Origin: Paenibacillus albicereus
Lineage (GTDB): Bacteria > Bacillota > Bacilli > Paenibacillales > Paenibacillaceae
NCBI RefSeq assembly: GCF_012676905.1
Contig: NZ_CP051428.1
Coordinates: 3,248,001-3,312,000, forward strand
Length of the DNA: 64,000 nucleotides
Direction of reading: 5' to 3'
Shown here: in pieces, positions 54,906 through 62,793 of the stretch
How positions within the stretch are numbered: position 1 is the stretch's first letter
Layout: each line of letters opens with the position of its first letter
Made by a program: the position numbers and the translations under genes
Notes under the pieces: generated by a model
Told to the model about the DNA's origin: nothing
Seen by the model: only the letters and a program-made list of their open reading frames with translations
Database searches by the model: none

Positions 54906-54918
54906 CGGAACGATCGAA

Positions 54919-54957
54919 AAAAGCCAAAGGCACCCCGTACCGGTGCCTTTGGCTTTT
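54919..54957. terminator. Bidirectional terminator between the nitroreductase and the sugar-acid operon
   Basis: AAAAGCCAAAGGCACC / GGTGCCTTTGGCTTTT with an 7-base loop; ends both convergent units. Confidence 0.94.
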
Positions 54958-55007: not shown

Positions 55008-55898
55008 CTACTCCGCCGTCATCCGGTTGCGCAGCGTGCCGAGCTTCTCGATCGCAATCTCCACGACATCGCCCGGCTGCAGGTACACCCGCCGCTCCGG
55101 AGGCAGGCCGAGCACGACGCCCTCCGGCGTGCCGGTGAGGATGATGTCGCCCGGCGACAGCGTCATATGCCGCGAGATGTAGCTGACGATCTCGTCGCAG
55201 CGGAAGATCATGTCCGACGTGCTCGACGACTGGCGCGTCTCTCCGTTCACGACGGCCGAGATCGCCAGCGCGTTCGGGTCGCCGACCTCGTCGGCCGTGA
55301 CCAGGTACGGGCCGAGCGGGCTGAACTTGTCGCAGGTCTTGCCGAGCAGCCACTGCGGCGTGCGCATCTGCAGGTCGCGGGCCGACAGGTCGTTGACGCA
55401 GCAATACCCGTACACATGGTCCAGAGCCTGCTCGCGCCCGACGTTCTTGGCGGTGCGGCCGATGACGACGACGAGCTCCGCCTCGTAGTCGACCTCCGAG
55501 CTGACGCGCGGCAGCGGGATGTCCTCGCCGTGGGCAGCCAGCGTATTGTTGAACTTGTTGAACAGGATCGGATAGGCCGGGATCGCCGCGTTCGTCTCCT
55601 CCGCATGCTTGCGGTAGTTGAGGCCCACGCAGATGATCTTGCCCGGAGCCGTCACGCACGGTCCGAGCTGCAGCGCGTCCTCGTCCAGCCACAGCTCCGC
55701 GTCGCCGTCCGCCTGGGCAGCCAGCGCCTCCAGCGTCCGCCGCGCTTCGTCTCCGCCCTCGATCGCGGCCCCGATCGTCATCGGCACCTGCCGCCCCTCG
55801 CCTCTTGTCGCGGCAGCAGCCGTCACGTCCAGCACTCCCTGCTCCGTACGCATGCCGAGCGCCAGCCGTCCTTCCCTGTGAAATGTCAGCAGCTTCAT
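55008..55898 (-). CDS. FAH-family hydrolase (probable 2,4-diketo-3-deoxy-sugar-acid hydrolase)
   Basis: A 296-residue fumarylacetoacetate hydrolase-fold enzyme. Metal ligands are in EVDYEAELVVVIG (two Glu) with the later Asp in VNDLSARDLQ; KTCDKFSPLGPYLV and LTGTPEGV complete the active site. In the non-phosphorylative L-fucose and L-rhamnose routes, members of this family split 2,4-diketo-3-deoxy-aldonates to pyruvate and lactate. It is the last gene of the operon, directly after the SDR that could make its substrate. Confidence 0.87.
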   Translation of the reverse strand: MKLLTFHREGRLALGMRTEQGVLDVTAAAATRGEGRQVPMTIGAAIEGGDEARRTLEALAAQADGDAELWLDEDALQLGPCVTAPGKIICVGLNYRKHAEETNAAIPAYPILFNKFNNTLAAHGEDIPLPRVSSEVDYEAELVVVIGRTAKNVGREQALDHVYGYCCVNDLSARDLQMRTPQWLLGKTCDKFSPLGPYLVTADEVGDPNALAISAVVNGETRQSSSTSDMIFRCDEIVSYISRHMTLSPGDIILTGTPEGVVLGLPPERRVYLQPGDVVEIAIEKLGTLRNRMTAE

Positions 55899-55955
55899 GA
55901 TGGCCGATTCCCCTTTCGCTTGCTTCGCTTGCTTTCTCTTGCCTTCGCTCGCCGT

Positions 55956-56729
55956 CTAGGCGTTCTTGCCGAATACGACGCCCCCGTCCAAATAAAGCGG
56001 CGAGCCCATCATGAACTTCGACTCGTCGGAGGCGAGGAACAGCGCGCCCTCGGCGACGTCCTCCGGCCGGCCGAGATCGCCGCTCAGCTGGCGGCTGCGG
56101 ATGCCGGCCAAGCCTTCCTCCAGGTCCTCGTACGATTCGCGCAAATACTTCTCCACGAACGGCGTCAGGATCGTGCCCGGCAGCAGCGCGTTCACGCGGA
56201 TGCCGTACGGCGCGTAGTCGACCTGCATCGACTTGGTAAGCGCAAGGATGGCGCCTTTGGTCGCGGCGTAGGAAGCCCGGCGGGCGAGGCCGATCTCGGC
56301 GATGCACGAGCTCATGTTGATGATGACGCCGCCGCGCCGCTCCATCATCGACGGCAGCGCCGCCCGGCTCGGCAGGTATGTGCCGCGGATGTTCACGTTG
56401 ATGACGCGATCCCAGGCGTCCGGCTCCACCTCGTGCAGCGCGCCGACGCCGCTGATGCCCGCGTTGTTGAAGAGCACGTCGATGCGGCCGTGCCGCGCGA
56501 GCGTCTGCTGCGCCATCGCCTCCGCCGAGGCGGGATCGGTGACGTCGCAGCCGACGGCGGATGCCTGGCCGCCCGCCTCGGCGATCAGGGCGACCGTTTC
56601 TTCGGCCGCCTCCACGTTGATGTCCGCGACGACGACGGCCGCCCCCTCCGAGGCGAAGCGCAGGGCGGAGCAGCGCCCGATGCCCGAGCCCGCTCCGGTT
56701 ATGAGCGCGATCTTGTCCTTCAGTCTCAT
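55956..56729 (-). CDS. SDR dehydrogenase (probable 2-keto-3-deoxy-sugar-acid 4-dehydrogenase)
   Basis: A 257-residue classical SDR. Motifs: TGAGSGIGR, NNAGISGVG, catalytic Ser in INMSSCIAEIG, and YAATK. The C-terminal LYLDGGVVFGKNA is usual for sugar-acid SDRs. In L-fucose/L-rhamnose pathways an SDR oxidises the 2-keto-3-deoxy acid at C4. ATG at 56729 follows AAGGAGG by 9 bases. Lies between the lactonase and the diketo-acid hydrolase. Confidence 0.87.
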   Translation of the reverse strand: MRLKDKIALITGAGSGIGRCSALRFASEGAAVVVADINVEAAEETVALIAEAGGQASAVGCDVTDPASAEAMAQQTLARHGRIDVLFNNAGISGVGALHEVEPDAWDRVINVNIRGTYLPSRAALPSMMERRGGVIINMSSCIAEIGLARRASYAATKGAILALTKSMQVDYAPYGIRVNALLPGTILTPFVEKYLRESYEDLEEGLAGIRSRQLSGDLGRPEDVAEGALFLASDESKFMMGSPLYLDGGVVFGKNA

Positions 56730-56851
56730 CGTCCGTTTCCTCCTTGTATAGCGCCTCCAGCGCATTTTTCCCGCTCGGCGGCCTTGCGTTCCCGCTCATG
56801 CGGCGGCAGGCCCGGATGAGCCCAAGTGAACCCCGCCTGCCCGCATGCAGC

Positions 56852-57718
56852 CTAGCGTGAAGCCCGCCCCCGCCAGCCGGACGCCACGCCGAGGCCATAC
56901 CAGCGCGCCGCATTGCCGCCGAACGCATCCCGCCGCTGCGCCTCGCTCCACGAAGCCGGCAGCAGCGTGCGCGCCAGCTCGGCGACCTCGCCGTACTCCG
57001 CCGCCGGCAGGCAGACCGGCCAGTCGCTGCCGAACAGGACGCGCTCCGGACCGAACCGCTCCAACGCTTCCTCCGCATGGGGCCGAACCGTCTCCGGGCT
57101 CCAGCCCGCGCCCGCTTCCGTAACGAGGCCGGACAGCTTGCAGGCGGTGCGCGGCCGCGCGGCCAGCTCGCGCAGGCCGTCGCTCCAGACGCGCCGACGG
57201 CTTCCGGCCGCCATGTCCGGCTTGCCGATGTGGTCGAGCACGGCGCGCAGCTCGGGCACCTGCTCCAGCGCTCGCGCGGCTGCCGCCATCTGCGGCGGCC
57301 GCACGAGCACGTCGAGCGTCAGTCCGCGCTCGCTCGCGGCGCGCAGCCCGCGGATGACGCGCGGACGCTCGATCCAGCGGTCGTCGGCCAGATCCTGCAG
57401 CATCGGCCGGATGCCGAGCAGATAGGGCGATGCCAGGAGCCTATCCAGCGTCTCCTCGACGCGCTCCTCTTCCAGATCGACCCAGCCGACCGCGCCGGCG
57501 AGCGTAGCCTCCCTTTCGCACAGGTCCAGCAGATATTCCGTCTCGGCCAACGTCGGCGCGGCCTGCACGACGATCGAGCGGAAGAAGCCCTCCCGAGCGA
57601 GCAGCGGAGCCAGCTCATCCGGCCCATAGTCGCGGTACAGCGGCCCCAGCTCCGGCGTCAGCCAGCCGTAGTCGCCGCGCGACAGCTTCCAATAATGCTG
57701 ATGCGCGTCGATGTTCAC
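56852..57718 (-). CDS. Amidohydrolase-2 family lactonase (L-fuconolactonase-like)
   Basis: A 288-residue metal-dependent hydrolase of the COG3618 type. N-terminal metal motif DAHQHYWKLSRGDYGWL, then VVQAAPTLAETEYLL, GIRPMLQD, LDHIGKP and LFGSDWPV (catalytic Asp). Such proteins open L-fucono- or L-rhamnono-lactones. GTG start at 57718 overlaps the fucU stop codon (GTGA). Confidence 0.87.
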   Translation of the reverse strand: MNIDAHQHYWKLSRGDYGWLTPELGPLYRDYGPDELAPLLAREGFFRSIVVQAAPTLAETEYLLDLCEREATLAGAVGWVDLEEERVEETLDRLLASPYLLGIRPMLQDLADDRWIERPRVIRGLRAASERGLTLDVLVRPPQMAAAARALEQVPELRAVLDHIGKPDMAAGSRRRVWSDGLRELAARPRTACKLSGLVTEAGAGWSPETVRPHAEEALERFGPERVLFGSDWPVCLPAAEYGEVAELARTLLPASWSEAQRRDAFGGNAARWYGLGVASGWRGRASR

Positions 57719-58146
57719 GTCCGCACCACGCCTTTCGTCAGGATGAGGTTGCCGTACGGGGCCGGCTCGCTCGTCGCGACGACGGCATAAGCCCGGCCCG
57801 CCCGCTCGTAAAAGGCGAACCGCTCCAGCTCGGCGATGCCGACCTCGCGCCGTTCATGGAGACGCAGCAGCTCCCGGTACCGCTCCCAGACAGCAGGCGC
57901 CGGCGGATCGCCGGGTACGGCCGCCATGACGGCGGCCGGCTGCGGCACGTACGTGTCCACCGGCAGCAGCGTCAGGATCGCCTCCAGCAGCTCCGGGATG
58001 CCGTGGCCGTCCGCCCGGATGAGCCGCGCGGCCGTCGACGCCGCCGGAAAGTTGGCGTCGGCGAGCACGAGCTCGTCGCCGTGGCCCATCGCCCGCAGCG
58101 CGGCGAGCAGCTCCGGCGAGAGCAGCGGCGAGATTCCCTTCAGCAT
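57715..58146 (-). CDS. fucU: L-fucose mutarotase FucU
   Basis: A 143-residue RbsD/FucU-fold enzyme that interconverts sugar anomers. It closely follows FucU: LKGISPLLSPELLAALRAMG then HGDELVLADANFP with the catalytic His, IRADG, LPVDTY, RFAFYERA with the second active-site residues, and YGNLILTKGV. The fit to FucU rather than RbsD points to L-fucose or a close stereo-relative. ATG overlaps the end of the dehydrogenase gene by 7 bases with GGAGGAGG ahead. Confidence 0.92.
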   Translation of the reverse strand: MLKGISPLLSPELLAALRAMGHGDELVLADANFPAASTAARLIRADGHGIPELLEAILTLLPVDTYVPQPAAVMAAVPGDPPAPAVWERYRELLRLHERREVGIAELERFAFYERAGRAYAVVATSEPAPYGNLILTKGVVRT

Positions 58147-59258
58147 GCCGCCTCCTCCTCTTCCTCCGCCGCGATCTCGCGCAGCGCGACCGGTCGGTCC
58201 TCGCTCATCGAGCGGTACGCCGCGAAGACGAGCTGCATCGTCTCGAGGTTGTCGCGCACGGAATGCTCCGGCTCGCGGTCCTCCTCGATCGCCCGCAGCA
58301 GCTCGCCCATCGTGCCGAGGAAGGCGTCGGGGAACCATTTGCCGTGCAGCGTCGGAACGAACCAATAATCGGGATGGAGGAGCCGCGAGTGGAACCGAAG
58401 CGTGTCCTCCCGTCCGACCGGATAGTCGTACAGCGAGCCGTTCGTGCCCTGGACGATGCCCTCCGTGCCCTCGAACCGGTACGTCGCGTGCCAGTCCTCC
58501 TCGCCGGCGATATGGTTGTGGTTGTCGTGGATGAGCGCGCGCCGCTCGCCGGGATAGCGCAGCGACAGCATCGTGCGCGTCTCGCCGACAGTGCGCTGGC
58601 CGGGGAAGCGGGCTCCGTCGGCGTAGATCGAGTCCGGCGTGCCGAACAGGAAGCGGATGCTGTCGAGGTAATGGATGCTGTGGTACATGACCTCCAGCGT
58701 CGGCATCTCCCGCAGCCAGCTCCACGCGGCGAAATCCTGGCGGACGTCGACCGAGATCGTCGCCTGCAGCGGCTCTCCGAGCCAGCCTCGGCTCAGGATC
58801 GCATGGCTGGCGCGGATGCCGGGCGACCAGCGCATCTGCTGGTTGACCGCGCCGCGCACGCCATGCTCCCGGCAAGCCCGCTCGATGGCCGCCGCCTCGC
58901 GGTAGCTTTCGGCGAGCGGCTTCTGGCAGAGCATGTGCTTGCCGGCGCGGGCCGCCTGCAGCGCGATCGCCGGCTGCGCCTTGGCGGGCACGGCGATGTC
59001 GACGACGCGCACGGCGGGATCGGCGAGCAGCGCCTCGAGCGAGCGATACACGCGGGGCAGGCCGAAGGCGGCAGCGAGCGCGGCGGCTCGCTCCTCCTCG
59101 AGATCGTAGATGCCGACGACGTTCAAGCCGCCTTGGCGGTAGGCGGGCAGATGGCAGGAGCCGACGATTTCGCCGGCTCCGATGATGGCGATGCCGGCAG
59201 AGCGGTCTTGCGGGAGCTTGGGCTTGTAGTCGAGCTCCAGATAGTCGATGGCGTTCAT
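58140..59258 (-). CDS. Gfo/Idh/MocA sugar dehydrogenase in the fucU operon
   Basis: A 372-residue NAD(P)-dependent oxidoreductase. The cofactor motif reads AIIGAGEIVGSCHLPAY and the substrate motif CQKPLAES (usual EKP with Gln for Glu). YHSIHYLDSIRFLFG holds the catalytic His. It ends with a run of Glu. In this operon it is the best candidate for oxidising the sugar at C1 to a lactone. RBS AAAGGAGGAG. Family certain; the step is inferred. Confidence 0.87.
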   Translation of the reverse strand: MNAIDYLELDYKPKLPQDRSAGIAIIGAGEIVGSCHLPAYRQGGLNVVGIYDLEEERAAALAAAFGLPRVYRSLEALLADPAVRVVDIAVPAKAQPAIALQAARAGKHMLCQKPLAESYREAAAIERACREHGVRGAVNQQMRWSPGIRASHAILSRGWLGEPLQATISVDVRQDFAAWSWLREMPTLEVMYHSIHYLDSIRFLFGTPDSIYADGARFPGQRTVGETRTMLSLRYPGERRALIHDNHNHIAGEEDWHATYRFEGTEGIVQGTNGSLYDYPVGREDTLRFHSRLLHPDYWFVPTLHGKWFPDAFLGTMGELLRAIEEDREPEHSVRDNLETMQLVFAAYRSMSEDRPVALREIAAEEEEEAAC

Positions 59259-59268
59259 AGCTCCTCCT

Positions 59269-60513
59269 TTACAGGCTCGGGCCGATGCGGTTGATGGAAA
59301 ATTCCTGATGCCCGAGTATCTCCGCCTTCGTGAGCTTTCCTGCCGCGACCTCGACGATCTCCTGCCAGATCCTCTCGCCGGCCGCCTCCACGTCGAGCGA
59401 CCCGTCCAGCATCGGGCTGACGTCGACGTCCATATTGTCCTCCATGAGCGAGAACGTCCTATCGTTGCCGGTAATCTTGACGACCGGGACGACGGCCGCG
59501 CCCGTCGGCGTGCCGCGGCCGGTCGTGAAGCAGACGATATGCGCGCCCGCCGCCGCCATGCCGGAGACGCATTCGATGTCGTTGCCGGGAGAGTCCATGA
59601 AATAGAGCCCGCCCTCCGGCAGCCGCTCGGCATACTCGGTCACGCCGAGAATCGGGGACGTGCCGCATTTGCTGATGCAGCCGAGCGATTTCTCCTCGAT
59701 CGTCGACAGTCCGCCGGCGATGTTGCCCGGGCTCGGATTGCCGCCGCGCATGTCGGCGCCCATCCGCTCCACCTCGCGCTCGAAGCGGCCGACGATCGCG
59801 TACAGCCGCTCCCGGACCGCCGGGTCCGGACAGCGCTCGGCGAGCACATGCTCGGCGCCGATGATTTCCGTCGTCTCGCCGATGACGACCGTGCCGCCTG
59901 CCCGGACGAGCGCATCGGCTGCGGCGCCTAGAGCCGGGTTGGACGCGAGCCCCGAGGTCGCGTCCGAGCCGCCGCATTTGACGCCGACCTTCAGCTTGGA
60001 CAGCGGCACCGGCACCTGCGGCTGGCGCATGAGGTCCGACTGCAGCTGCCGCGCCAGCTTCGCGCCGTGCTCGATCGCCTTCACCGATCCGCCGACGCTC
60101 TGGATGTCGAACCATTCGACAGGTTTACCGGTAACGCGGATCGCATCGGCCAGCTGCTGCGGGTCGACGACCTCGCAGCCGAGGCTGACGATGAGCACCG
60201 CGCCGACGTTCGGGTTGGCCCCCGTCCCCGCCAGCACGGCGAACGTGCGGTCCTTGTCCGCGCCGATCTGGCTGCAGCCGTGCGGATGCGGCACGGCGAC
60301 CGCCCCCGGCACGAGCTGCGCGATGCGGCTGCACACTTGATTCGAGCAGATGACGGTCGGGATGATAAGCAGATGATTGCGGATGCCGATATCGCCGTTC
60401 GCCCGCTCGTACGCCAGGATCGTCGAGGCTGACTGCTCTCCCGCCGGCGCTGCTCCTGCCTGTGCCTCGCCTGCTGTCTTTGCCGCTTGCGCTCCCTCGC
60501 CTGCTTCGCTCAT
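59269..60513 (-). CDS. UxaA-type sugar-acid dehydratase, large (C-terminal) subunit
   Basis: A 414-residue protein of the altronate/galactarate dehydratase family. After an Ala/Gly-rich leader of about 30 residues it shows YERANGDIGIRNHLLIIPTV, VPHPHGCSQIG, SLGCEVVD, KCGGSDATSGLASNPALG, and ISKCGTSPILGV. Conserved Cys residues (HGCSQ, LGCE, KCGGSD, SKCGT) suggest an iron-dependent site as in UxaA. It should remove water from an aldonate to give the 2-keto-3-deoxy acid. Pairs with the SAF subunit gene, overlapping by ATGA. Confidence 0.9.
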   Translation of the reverse strand: MSEAGEGAQAAKTAGEAQAGAAPAGEQSASTILAYERANGDIGIRNHLLIIPTVICSNQVCSRIAQLVPGAVAVPHPHGCSQIGADKDRTFAVLAGTGANPNVGAVLIVSLGCEVVDPQQLADAIRVTGKPVEWFDIQSVGGSVKAIEHGAKLARQLQSDLMRQPQVPVPLSKLKVGVKCGGSDATSGLASNPALGAAADALVRAGGTVVIGETTEIIGAEHVLAERCPDPAVRERLYAIVGRFEREVERMGADMRGGNPSPGNIAGGLSTIEEKSLGCISKCGTSPILGVTEYAERLPEGGLYFMDSPGNDIECVSGMAAAGAHIVCFTTGRGTPTGAAVVPVVKITGNDRTFSLMEDNMDVDVSPMLDGSLDVEAAGERIWQEIVEVAAGKLTKAEILGHQEFSINRIGPSL

Positions 60514-60848
60514 GCTTCTCCTCCTCCCGGTCTGCCCGAGGCGGCCTGGTCGCCGCGCCCGCGGATGCCCTCGATGTTGTGCACGTGCACATGGCATCCC
60601 GGCTCGATCGGGACGACGGCGCGGCCGATCACCTCGCCGTACTTGCGCACCTCTCCGCCCGCGCTCACCGCCGAGATCGCGATCTTGTGGCCGAACGCGA
60701 CCGGCTCCGTCAGGACGACGCTCCCCTCTCGCCCGCCGGCCTTGTACCGGATCGTCTCTCCGGCCGCCGCATCCCGCAGCGCGGTCGCGACATGATCGCG
60801 GACATCCATGACGATCGCGTCCGCTCCCGCTTCGAACGCATGCTCCAT
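60510..60848 (-). CDS. UxaA-type dehydratase, small SAF-domain subunit
   Basis: A 112-residue protein equal to the N-terminal SAF domain of altronate dehydratase. It contains DAIVMDVRDHVATAL, GHKIAISAVSAGGEVRKYGE and the metal-contact-like GCHVHVHNIEGIRGRG. In UxaA the two parts are fused; here they are separate genes overlapping by four bases. First gene of the operon, with AGGAGGAGG before ATG. Confidence 0.9.
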   Translation of the reverse strand: MEHAFEAGADAIVMDVRDHVATALRDAAAGETIRYKAGGREGSVVLTEPVAFGHKIAISAVSAGGEVRKYGEVIGRAVVPIEPGCHVHVHNIEGIRGRGDQAASGRPGGGEA

Positions 60849-60907
60849 GTCCTCGCCTCCTCCTAGCGCATGGCGGACGACGCAGGTCGGCCCGCCATGC
60901 CTTCCCT

Positions 60908-60931
60908 ATTTGAGTTATCGGTAACTCAAAT
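60908..60931. promoter_or_regulatory. LacI-type operator between the sugar-acid operon and lacI
   Basis: Perfect palindrome ATTTGAGTTA TCGG TAACTCAAAT (10-bp arms). It overlaps the -10 of the minus-strand operon promoter and lies about 80 bases upstream of lacI. Likely bound by the adjacent LacI protein. Confidence 0.85.
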
Positions 60932-61012: not shown

Positions 61013-62023
61013 ATGGTCACCATCTACGACATCGCCCGCGCGGCCGGCGTCTCCGCCATGACCGTATCACGGGTCATCAACGAGACGGGCCGTGTCGGCG
61101 AAGCGACGAGAAAGCGGGTGCGGCAGGTGATGGAGGAGCTGCAGTACGTGCCGAACTCCAACGCCCGCAGCCTCGTCCTGCAGAAAACGAACATCCTCTC
61201 CCTGCTCATCGCGGACATCACCAACCCGTTCTATACGACGCTGGCGCGGGGAGCGGAGGATACGGCCAAACGGCTCGGCTACCGGCTGCTGCTCGGCAAC
61301 AGCGACGAGGATTACGGCAAGGAAAAGGACTACGTGGACATGATCCTGTCCACGCGGGTCGACGGCGTGCTGTTCGCCCCGGCGGGAGACGGATCCGCCC
61401 CGCATCTGCGGCTGCTGGAGCAGCACCGCATTCCTTACGTGCTGCTCGACCGGGACGTGCCCGGCATCCAGGCGGACCGCATCCTCGGCGAGAGCCGCGA
61501 CGGCGCGCGCCGGCTCGTCGAGCATCTGATCGCGCTCGGCCATGAGCGCATCGCGCTCGTGAACGGCTCCGAGGACGTCTCGACCGCACGCGAGCGCCAT
61601 GCCGGCTACCGCGACGCGCTCAAGCTGAACGACCTCCCGTACGACGAGGCGCTCGTCCGCCATCTCGACTATTCGGACGGCTTCAATCCGAGCGATCTCG
61701 ATCCGCTGCTCGCGCTGGCCTCCCCGCCGACGGCGATCTTCGCCGCCAACAACTTCCTCGCCCTCGGCGTCATCCAGTCGCTGCGCGAGCGCGGCCTGGC
61801 GGTGCCGGACGATCTGTCGGTCGTCTGCTTCGACGACCTCGGCTTCGCCAGCGTGCTGAGCCCGTTCCTGACGGTGGCGGCGCAGCCGGCCTATCAGTTC
61901 GGCGCGCTCGGCCTGGAGCGGCTCGTCGACCGGATCGAGAACGGCGACGGCAGCGGCCCGCGCACGCTCATCCTGCCGGCGGAGCTGATCGTGCGCTCGT
62001 CGAGCCGGATGCGGGGGCGCTGA
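61013..62023 (+). CDS. LacI-family regulator of the sugar-acid operon
   Basis: A 336-residue repressor. The DNA-binding head is TIYDIARAAGVSAMTVSRVIN with the hinge YVPNSNARSLV; the periplasmic-binding-protein-like domain follows (LLIADITNPFYTTLARG, VDGVLFAP, AIFAANNFLALGV, VVCFDDLGF). It is divergent from the operon and next to a perfect palindrome, so it probably represses it until a sugar or sugar-acid intermediate binds. RBS GGAGG before ATG. Confidence 0.92.
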   Translation: MVTIYDIARAAGVSAMTVSRVINETGRVGEATRKRVRQVMEELQYVPNSNARSLVLQKTNILSLLIADITNPFYTTLARGAEDTAKRLGYRLLLGNSDEDYGKEKDYVDMILSTRVDGVLFAPAGDGSAPHLRLLEQHRIPYVLLDRDVPGIQADRILGESRDGARRLVEHLIALGHERIALVNGSEDVSTARERHAGYRDALKLNDLPYDEALVRHLDYSDGFNPSDLDPLLALASPPTAIFAANNFLALGVIQSLRERGLAVPDDLSVVCFDDLGFASVLSPFLTVAAQPAYQFGALGLERLVDRIENGDGSGPRTLILPAELIVRSSSRMRGR

Positions 62024-62370: not shown

Positions 62371-62793
62371 CTAGTCGAAAAACTCCATATGCGGCTTGGT
62401 CTCGCGATAATAGGCCATCCGGTCGGCCAGCGTGCCGGTATGGAATTCGAACTTGTGTCCGTCCGGGTCGGCGAAGTAGACCGAACGCCGGTCCCGCTCG
62501 TCCCGCTCCCGCCCCGGCAGGATATCCGCGCCGATGCGCCGCAGCCGGGACAACGCCTCGTCGAAGTCCTCCTCGTTCACAGAGAAGGCCATATGGGTGT
62601 ACGACAGCCGGATCTCCTCGCGCGGAAGACCCTTTTCTTCGTTCAGAGCCAGCCACAGTCCGTCGAGATCGAAATAGGCGGTCGTCCGCCCGCGCACGAG
62701 CAGCCTCGCGCCGAGCGCCTCCCGATAAAACGAGATCGACCGCTCCAGCGACGAGACGCTGAACAGCAGATGATTGATGCCTTGCAGCTTCAT
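62371..62793 (-). CDS. fosB: FosB metallothiol transferase (fosfomycin resistance)
   Basis: A 140-residue VOC-fold enzyme that adds bacillithiol or cysteine to fosfomycin. It matches FosB almost throughout: [67 protein letters not shown] and [14 protein letters not shown]. Metal ligands are His7, His64-region (SYTH) and Glu in KFEFH. AAGGAGG precedes ATG by 8 bases. Intrinsic copies are usual in Bacillus and Paenibacillus chromosomes. Confidence 0.95.

Follow-up and report, generated by a model that had tools for sequence, protein, structure and literature searches.

L-Fucose can be degraded by a non-phosphorylating pathway, route 3, whose genes carry the names FucM, FucA, FucB, FucC, FucF and FucG, for example in Xanthomonas campestris (PMC11199699). 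A two-subunit L-fuconate dehydratase of the UxaA type was recognised by gene context in Paraburkholderia mimosarum in 2019 (PMC6336799), and in Campylobacter jejuni the same dehydration step has been hypothesised for cj0482-cj0483, listed as the two ends of an altronate hydrolase (PMC12566272). PEH01S_RS21285, a type-2 enzyme of Paenibacillus ehimensis NBRC 15659, is active on L-2-keto-3-deoxyfuconate (L-KDF) and is placed in the fucose pathway by gene context (PMC11199699). Here we describe a seven-gene cluster in a 64,000-nucleotide stretch of Paenibacillus albicereus DNA (NZ_CP051428.1, positions 3,248,001 to 3,312,000; the window). From its sequence, we consider it likely that the cluster is a LacI-controlled operon for route 3, leading from L-fucose to pyruvate and L-lactate. 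The first step appears to be assigned to an enzyme of a family that has so far had no connection with L-fucose.

The seven genes form a co-directional run on the minus strand (60848-55008), transcribed in the order SAF, UxaA, Gfo/Idh/MocA, FucU, COG3618-type, SDR and FAH. A divergent LacI-type regulator (61013-62023) belongs to the unit. The features are as follows.

60510..60848, minus strand: SAF-domain small subunit of a UxaA-type dehydratase, 112 amino acids (PF08666, E 8.4e-11)
59269..60513, minus strand: UxaA-type large subunit, 414 amino acids, proposed L-fuconate dehydratase (PF04295 and PF20629)
58140..59258, minus strand: Gfo/Idh/MocA oxidoreductase, 372 amino acids, proposed L-fucose 1-dehydrogenase (Pfam family and locus position)
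57715..58146, minus strand: FucU, L-fucose mutarotase, 143 amino acids (NCBIfam cutoff passed; best PDB match 3mvk)
56852..57718, minus strand: COG3618-type amidohydrolase, 288 amino acids, GTG start, proposed L-fucono-1,5-lactonase (PF04909; best PDB match 4dlf)
55956..56729, minus strand: SDR, 257 amino acids, predicted type-2 L-2-keto-3-deoxyfuconate 4-dehydrogenase (R-T-Y-R pattern; best PDB match 4dqx)
55008..55898, minus strand: FAH-family hydrolase, 296 amino acids, proposed L-2,4-diketo-3-deoxyfuconate hydrolase (PF01557; best PDB match 8gsr)
61013..62023, plus strand: LacI-family regulator, 336 amino acids, divergent (PF00356 and PF13377)
60908..60931, no strand: predicted 24-bp palindromic operator, overlapping the second hexamer of a sigma-70-like site at 60957-60929
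54917..54955, minus strand: terminator-like hairpin 3' of the FAH gene, with a 14-bp stem, a 7-nt loop and a T run (read by eye)

In the proposed pathway, FucU would interconvert the anomers of L-fucose, the Gfo protein would oxidise the sugar at C1 with NAD(P)+ to L-fucono-1,5-lactone, and the COG3618-type enzyme would open this lactone. The SAF and UxaA pair would dehydrate L-fuconate to L-KDF, the SDR would oxidise its C4, and the FAH enzyme would cleave the diketo acid to pyruvate and L-lactate. GH95 and GH29 enzymes encoded in the same genome may release the L-fucose itself. A preliminary description of this DNA had claimed a closed route to pyruvate for an L-fucose-type sugar with neither kinase nor aldolase, and the presence of gene families covering six steps in one cluster supports it. 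The six reactions are like those of X. campestris, with which the mutarotase, COG3618-type lactonase, SDR C4 dehydrogenase and FAH hydrolase are homologous. However, the dehydratase there belongs to the enolase superfamily, whereas the window operon has the UxaA pair and, as its proposed C1 enzyme, a Gfo/Idh/MocA protein.

Pfam matches agree with the named family for each of the seven genes, and a codon-model gene call returned identical starts and stops for all of them, in line with the earlier view of seven one-strand genes of these families. Overlaps of 4-7 bases had also been taken as proof of a single unit. Such overlaps are found at three of the six junctions (SAF/UxaA 4 nt, Gfo/FucU 7 nt and FucU/lactonase 4 nt), but the other three are gaps of 10, 122 and 57 nt; a single unit is nonetheless credible. 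The operon had been given as 55008..60931, which holds for its gene content but not for its 5' end, as the first gene (SAF) starts at 60848 and positions 60908-60931 are the non-coding palindromic operator. At the other end, a terminator scan recovered only the inner five pairs of the hairpin at 54955-54917, and its terminator count was no greater than chance (2 against a shuffle mean of 2.1).

We surveyed 295 genomes of the bacterial family (handles with G) and a set of 81 UxaA loci (handles with L), with locus gene counts taken from the codon-model gene call; some records belong to both sets, so the two are not independent. A UxaA orthologue (at least 72% identity) is present in 56 of the 295 genomes. 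The complete seven-gene set was found in 3 of the 81 loci (L035, L036 and the window's own). Genome G058 (L129) holds LacI and six called genes of the seven, its small SAF gene being uncalled by the script. Because of this distribution, the gene set is not due to chance. The host is a close relative of P. pasadenensis, whose DSM 19293 locus (L106) is 94-96% identical in UxaA, Gfo, SDR and LacI.

The gene directly 3' of UxaA encodes the Gfo protein in 20 of the 81 loci and an aldose-dehydrogenase-like SDR (SDR2) in 42, with both in none. Every Gfo locus (20/20) and every SDR2 locus (42/42) has its enzyme in this slot, and the mutual exclusion gives a hypergeometric value of 1.5e-8 with relatedness ignored. 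Since the two swap in the slot after UxaA and never occur together, the Gfo protein probably carries out the C1 oxidation. Gfo orthologues of at least 67% identity are found in 22 of the 295 genomes; 21 adjoin UxaA and the 22nd lies near IclR-SDR-FAH. In that last locus (L116, in G027), some 950 nt with no gene call separate IclR-SDR-FAH from the Gfo gene that follows, and the UxaA pair is apparently lost or decayed. Among five more distant Gfo homologues (54-64%), four lie no more than three genes from a COG3618-type gene. In these five genomes (L117-L121), they stand beside CaiB-like CoA transferases and MaoC-like genes, names given by eye except for Gfo and the lactonase.

The Gfo protein has the NAD-binding domain, the Gfo/Idh/MocA fold and the lysine of the (E/Q)KP motif, and the aligned rows keep QKP and HSIHY. 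C1 oxidation of other aldoses by members of this family has precedents (PMC9795676), among them a scyllo-inositol dehydrogenase with L-glucose dehydrogenase activity (5ya8, 5yap and 6ktj) and L-arabinose 1-dehydrogenase (6jnj). These share the fold and the C1 oxidation of an aldose, but they serve other sugars and pathways, and the window protein is only about 23% identical to 5yap over the aligned structure. A Gfo-type L-fucose dehydrogenase was not found in the open-licence literature, including the excerpts of PMC5507952 and PMC9795676; the former predicts a non-orthologous fucose dehydrogenase, FucO-II. The earlier suggestion that C1 oxidation by the unrelated Gfo family is unusual thus stands for L-fucose, for which no precedent was found in these sources, but is tempered by the parallels for other aldoses.

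Several observations weigh against the assignments made here. The Gfo/Idh/MocA superfamily has a D-x3-H motif whose aspartate is not universal, and in all 27 Gfo rows this aspartate, four residues ahead of the histidine, is replaced by Tyr or Asn. L-Arabinose dehydrogenase places an Asp in the sugar site (PMC9795676), and no counterpart of it could be identified in the window Gfo protein. Only 10 of the 20 Gfo loci have SDR and FAH genes within the fetched stretch, which weakens the simple reading for the rest, and 19 of the 81 loci have neither Gfo nor SDR2 in the slot. In two loci without a slot enzyme, L060 and L075, the sequence stops 825 and 705 bases past UxaA, and each contains a partial SDR-like frame. 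As a side observation, a protein of about 460 amino acids is encoded in thirteen of the UxaA loci that have neither Gfo nor SDR2 (L042, L050, L054, L057, L059, L061, L062, L065, L068, L081, L093, L109 and L111), and the one scanned has PhyH and HEAT-repeat matches. The missing aspartate and the loci with neither slot enzyme would fit a Gfo protein that oxidises another position or a glycoside, with C1 oxidation encoded elsewhere in the genome; among the solved structures closest to it are those of 1,5-anhydrofructose reductase, levoglucosan dehydrogenase and NAD-dependent glycoside hydrolases. However, the strict slot exchange with an aldose-1-dehydrogenase-like SDR, the L-glucose dehydrogenase activity of a Gfo-fold scyllo-inositol dehydrogenase (titles of 5yap and 5ya8) and the COG3618-type gene near four of the five distant homologues argue for the C1 role, and we think this alternative improbable.

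Further points on the unfavourable side concern the lactonase, the hydrolase, the operator and the supply of sugar. The COG3618-type protein scored 231.2 bits with the L-fucono-1,5-lactonase model NF052480 (cutoff 400), and the FAH protein scored 238.4 bits with NF053535, 2,4-didehydro-3-deoxy-L-rhamnonate hydrolase (cutoff 500). The lactonase gene is missing from gene calls of the fetched loci of three relatives (L033, L034 and L106), and the step is therefore dispensable or done elsewhere. A reversed control pattern of the operator also gave one hit per strand in the genome, so that the count of operator sites is unremarkable and only the position of the second site, before GH95, is remarkable; in G058 and G036, the GH95 orthologues showed no such operator. 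Most genomes have GH95 (91 of 98 positive, often with several copies), and some GH95 enzymes act on L-galactosides. No transporter gene lies within the operon.

FucU passes the cutoff of the NCBIfam L-fucose mutarotase model PRK15420 (146.8 bits; cutoff 141) and scores only 39.7 bits as D-ribose pyranase. The best PDB match of the lactonase, 4dlf, is presumably a Burkholderia multivorans lactonase, and that of the FAH protein, 8gsr, is L-2,4-diketo-3-deoxyrhamnonate hydrolase. In the SDR, R151-T186-Y195-R213 forms the type-2 pattern and Ser141, Tyr154 and Lys158 the triad, the pattern positions being placed via 4dqx and not via the H. huttiense sequence. Type-2 L-KDF 4-dehydrogenases are marked by R-T-Y-R at four positions, and 4DQX lies near them (PMC11199699). 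The pattern is common to 55 of the 56 loci with an SDR orthologue, and the remaining one has R-T-F-R. At the P. ehimensis NBRC 15659 locus (L069), the SDR counterpart is 70% identical and also has R-T-Y-R; we infer that this gene is the assayed PEH01S_RS21285. L069 shares orthologues of FAH (67%), SAF (59%) and UxaA (77%) with the SDR in one cluster, but differs in its IclR regulator, its gene order and SDR2 in the Gfo slot, and no FucU or COG3618 hit was found in its 19-kb stretch.

The two dehydratase genes together hold SAF and the GD_AH second and C-terminal domains of the UxaA/GarD superfamily (COG2721). An SAF orthologue lies immediately 5' of the large subunit in all 81 loci, and Cys80, Cys113, Cys180 and Cys279 of the large subunit are kept in all of them. 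They are candidates for the four conserved cysteines of the superfamily, which are absent from sulfolactate sulfo-lyase (PMC6336799). A UxaA group at 43% identity retains only Cys180 of the four, and a group at 44-48% is without Cys279. The 43% group (L122, L127 and L128) was rejected as a second fucose set, since its neighbours differ and the cysteines are missing; we take a sulfolactate role to be likely for it. Large-subunit matches were found in 319 plasmid records. In six plasmid neighbourhoods inspected, one carried no annotation, and the five annotated ones all have a small 'UxaA family hydrolase' gene next to a large one, with an extra large copy in one of them. Adjacent small and large UxaA genes are ordinary. 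A 2019 paper in Mol. Microbiol. reportedly covers, going by its title, UxaA-family proteins in L-fucose pathways. The preliminary description had presented the split L-fuconate dehydratase as new, which is ruled out by its assignment in print (PMC6336799), the proposal for C. jejuni (PMC12566272) and the adjacent small and large genes elsewhere. The P. mimosarum (A19U_RS0100650/0100655) and C. jejuni clusters likewise have a context-assigned two-gene UxaA-type dehydratase; their hosts are of different phyla, DapA and the SDR FucX are listed for the C. jejuni locus, and the likeness is drawn from published gene context.

The pair might instead be the ordinary altronate dehydratase of a hexuronate pathway. 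No second UxaA-type protein was found in the genome (the large subunit is the sole match to itself at E 0.001), and uronate isomerase UxaC is present. However, UxaC has a LacI-like gene of its own next to it, and gene calls over 18 kb there gave no dehydratase (names by eye); the genome also encodes a mannonate dehydratase, UxuA, which could act in glucuronate use, and the mutarotase, lactonase, C4 dehydrogenase and diketo hydrolase of the operon are not needed for altronate. We regard this explanation as extremely improbable.

A LacI orthologue occurs in 20 of the 81 loci, and all of these but L104 (19 of 20) have the operator core 5' of SAF when one mismatch is allowed. Among the other 61 loci, the site stands just before SAF in two alone, L037 and L058, each of which holds fragments of LacI, and before the cluster's first gene in L110; further one-mismatch hits are scattered among other loci. 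Control would presumably be by repression, with an inducer, and uptake by a transporter encoded outside the operon. A genome search with the 16-bp site, allowing two mismatches, turned up a single further site, a 20-bp near-palindrome whose end is 25 nt ahead of the GH95 start. A wider genus regulon was considered and rejected, as the extra operator-like hits in G036, G023, G047 and G004 (L134 and L139-L142) look like chance: these 3-kb loci contain no GH95 or operon gene, their called genes are unrelated by eye, and none was called in L139 and L141.

The genome has one GH95 match and two GH29 genes about 9 kb apart, with ABC importer, CBM9 and GH18 genes around them. Five GH95 genes lie in 4 of the 81 loci (L041 twice, L107, L110 and L072), the L107 copy about 90 nt after the SDR gene. 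Because GH95 is so widespread and often multi-copy, this neighbourhood is only mild support and was rejected as proof; L107 and L041 stand out, with an operon-like arrangement or a position within a stretch bearing operator cores. Downstream of the operon, L041 (13087-19167) holds GH95 together with another LacI, a cyclase and genes that by eye are AKR-like and Zn-dehydrogenase-like; operator cores lie ahead of the cyclase and also deeper in this stretch. GH29 matches (E 0.001) were found in 53 of the 56 genomes with a UxaA orthologue and in 173 of the 239 without (Fisher p 1.7e-4); this test used the UxaA orthologue and not the full operon, ignored relatedness and was counted by hand from lists. 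A search for Fucose_iso_C, positive in E. coli, gave no match in the genome.

The same enzymes may mainly serve L-galactose or D-arabinose, which share the C2-C4 configuration of L-fucose and would yield pyruvate with L-glycerate or glycolate. The GH95 activity on L-galactosides is compatible with this. Relative activities of the UxaA-type enzyme C785_RS13685 were 100% on D-arabinonate, 12% on D-altronate, 5.6% on L-fuconate and 2.4% on L-galactonate, with the expected product spectrum not found in one weak case (PMC6336799), and C. jejuni fuc mutants are also unable to use D-arabinose (PMC6946681). In contrast, the FucU score above its cutoff, the assay of this SDR type on L-KDF and the enrichment of GH29 with the UxaA orthologue point to L-fucose as the substrate, and we give the alternative sugars limited credence.

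A like exclusion is seen for the presumed mutarotase and lactonase steps. Among the 81 loci, FucU (8 loci) and an RbsD-type mutarotase (10 loci) never occur together, nor do the COG3618-type protein (6 loci) and a PF04199 cyclase (11 loci); the cyclase accompanies the RbsD-type protein in 8 of its 10 loci. The RbsD-type protein is above the D-ribose pyranase cutoff and the cyclase is under the arylformamidase cutoff, and their roles in these loci are read from gene position. A cyclase-type fuconolactonase was not found in the open-licence literature, and the excerpt of PMC10746189 is not on the subject. There is about an even chance that the operon belongs to a mosaic, in which the Gfo protein would be an L-fucose 1-dehydrogenase of a family new to this sugar. 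Around a constant UxaA pair, often with the L-KDF dehydrogenase and the diketo hydrolase, unrelated enzymes of the first three steps would be interchangeable (Gfo or SDR, FucU or RbsD type, COG3618 or PF04199 cyclase), and the regulator would be of the LacI, IclR or AraC type. On this reading, the RbsD-type protein would act as a mutarotase for fucose-type sugars, and the 'cyclase' as a sugar-acid lactonase that has gone unrecognised.

Beyond the LacI gene lies a FosB-like metallothiol transferase gene (62371-62793, minus strand; PRK04101 222.8 bits, cutoff 171), which is found in the same place in L106.

Together, the sequence comparisons indicate that the preliminary description was right on the pathway and wrong on the novelty of the dehydratase, and that the Gfo step is plausible. 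The route, its gene names, the Paenibacillus SDR type (PMC11199699) and the two-part dehydratase were already known; the remaining new point would be a Gfo protein replacing an SDR or AKR. Even if this is true, the known chemistry of L-fucose breakdown is unchanged. It would add one more unrelated protein family for a single reaction and a compact example of enzyme replacement round a fixed core. It would also give a testable function to the Gfo, cyclase and RbsD-type gene sets of Paenibacillaceae, which the family libraries used here leave unnamed.

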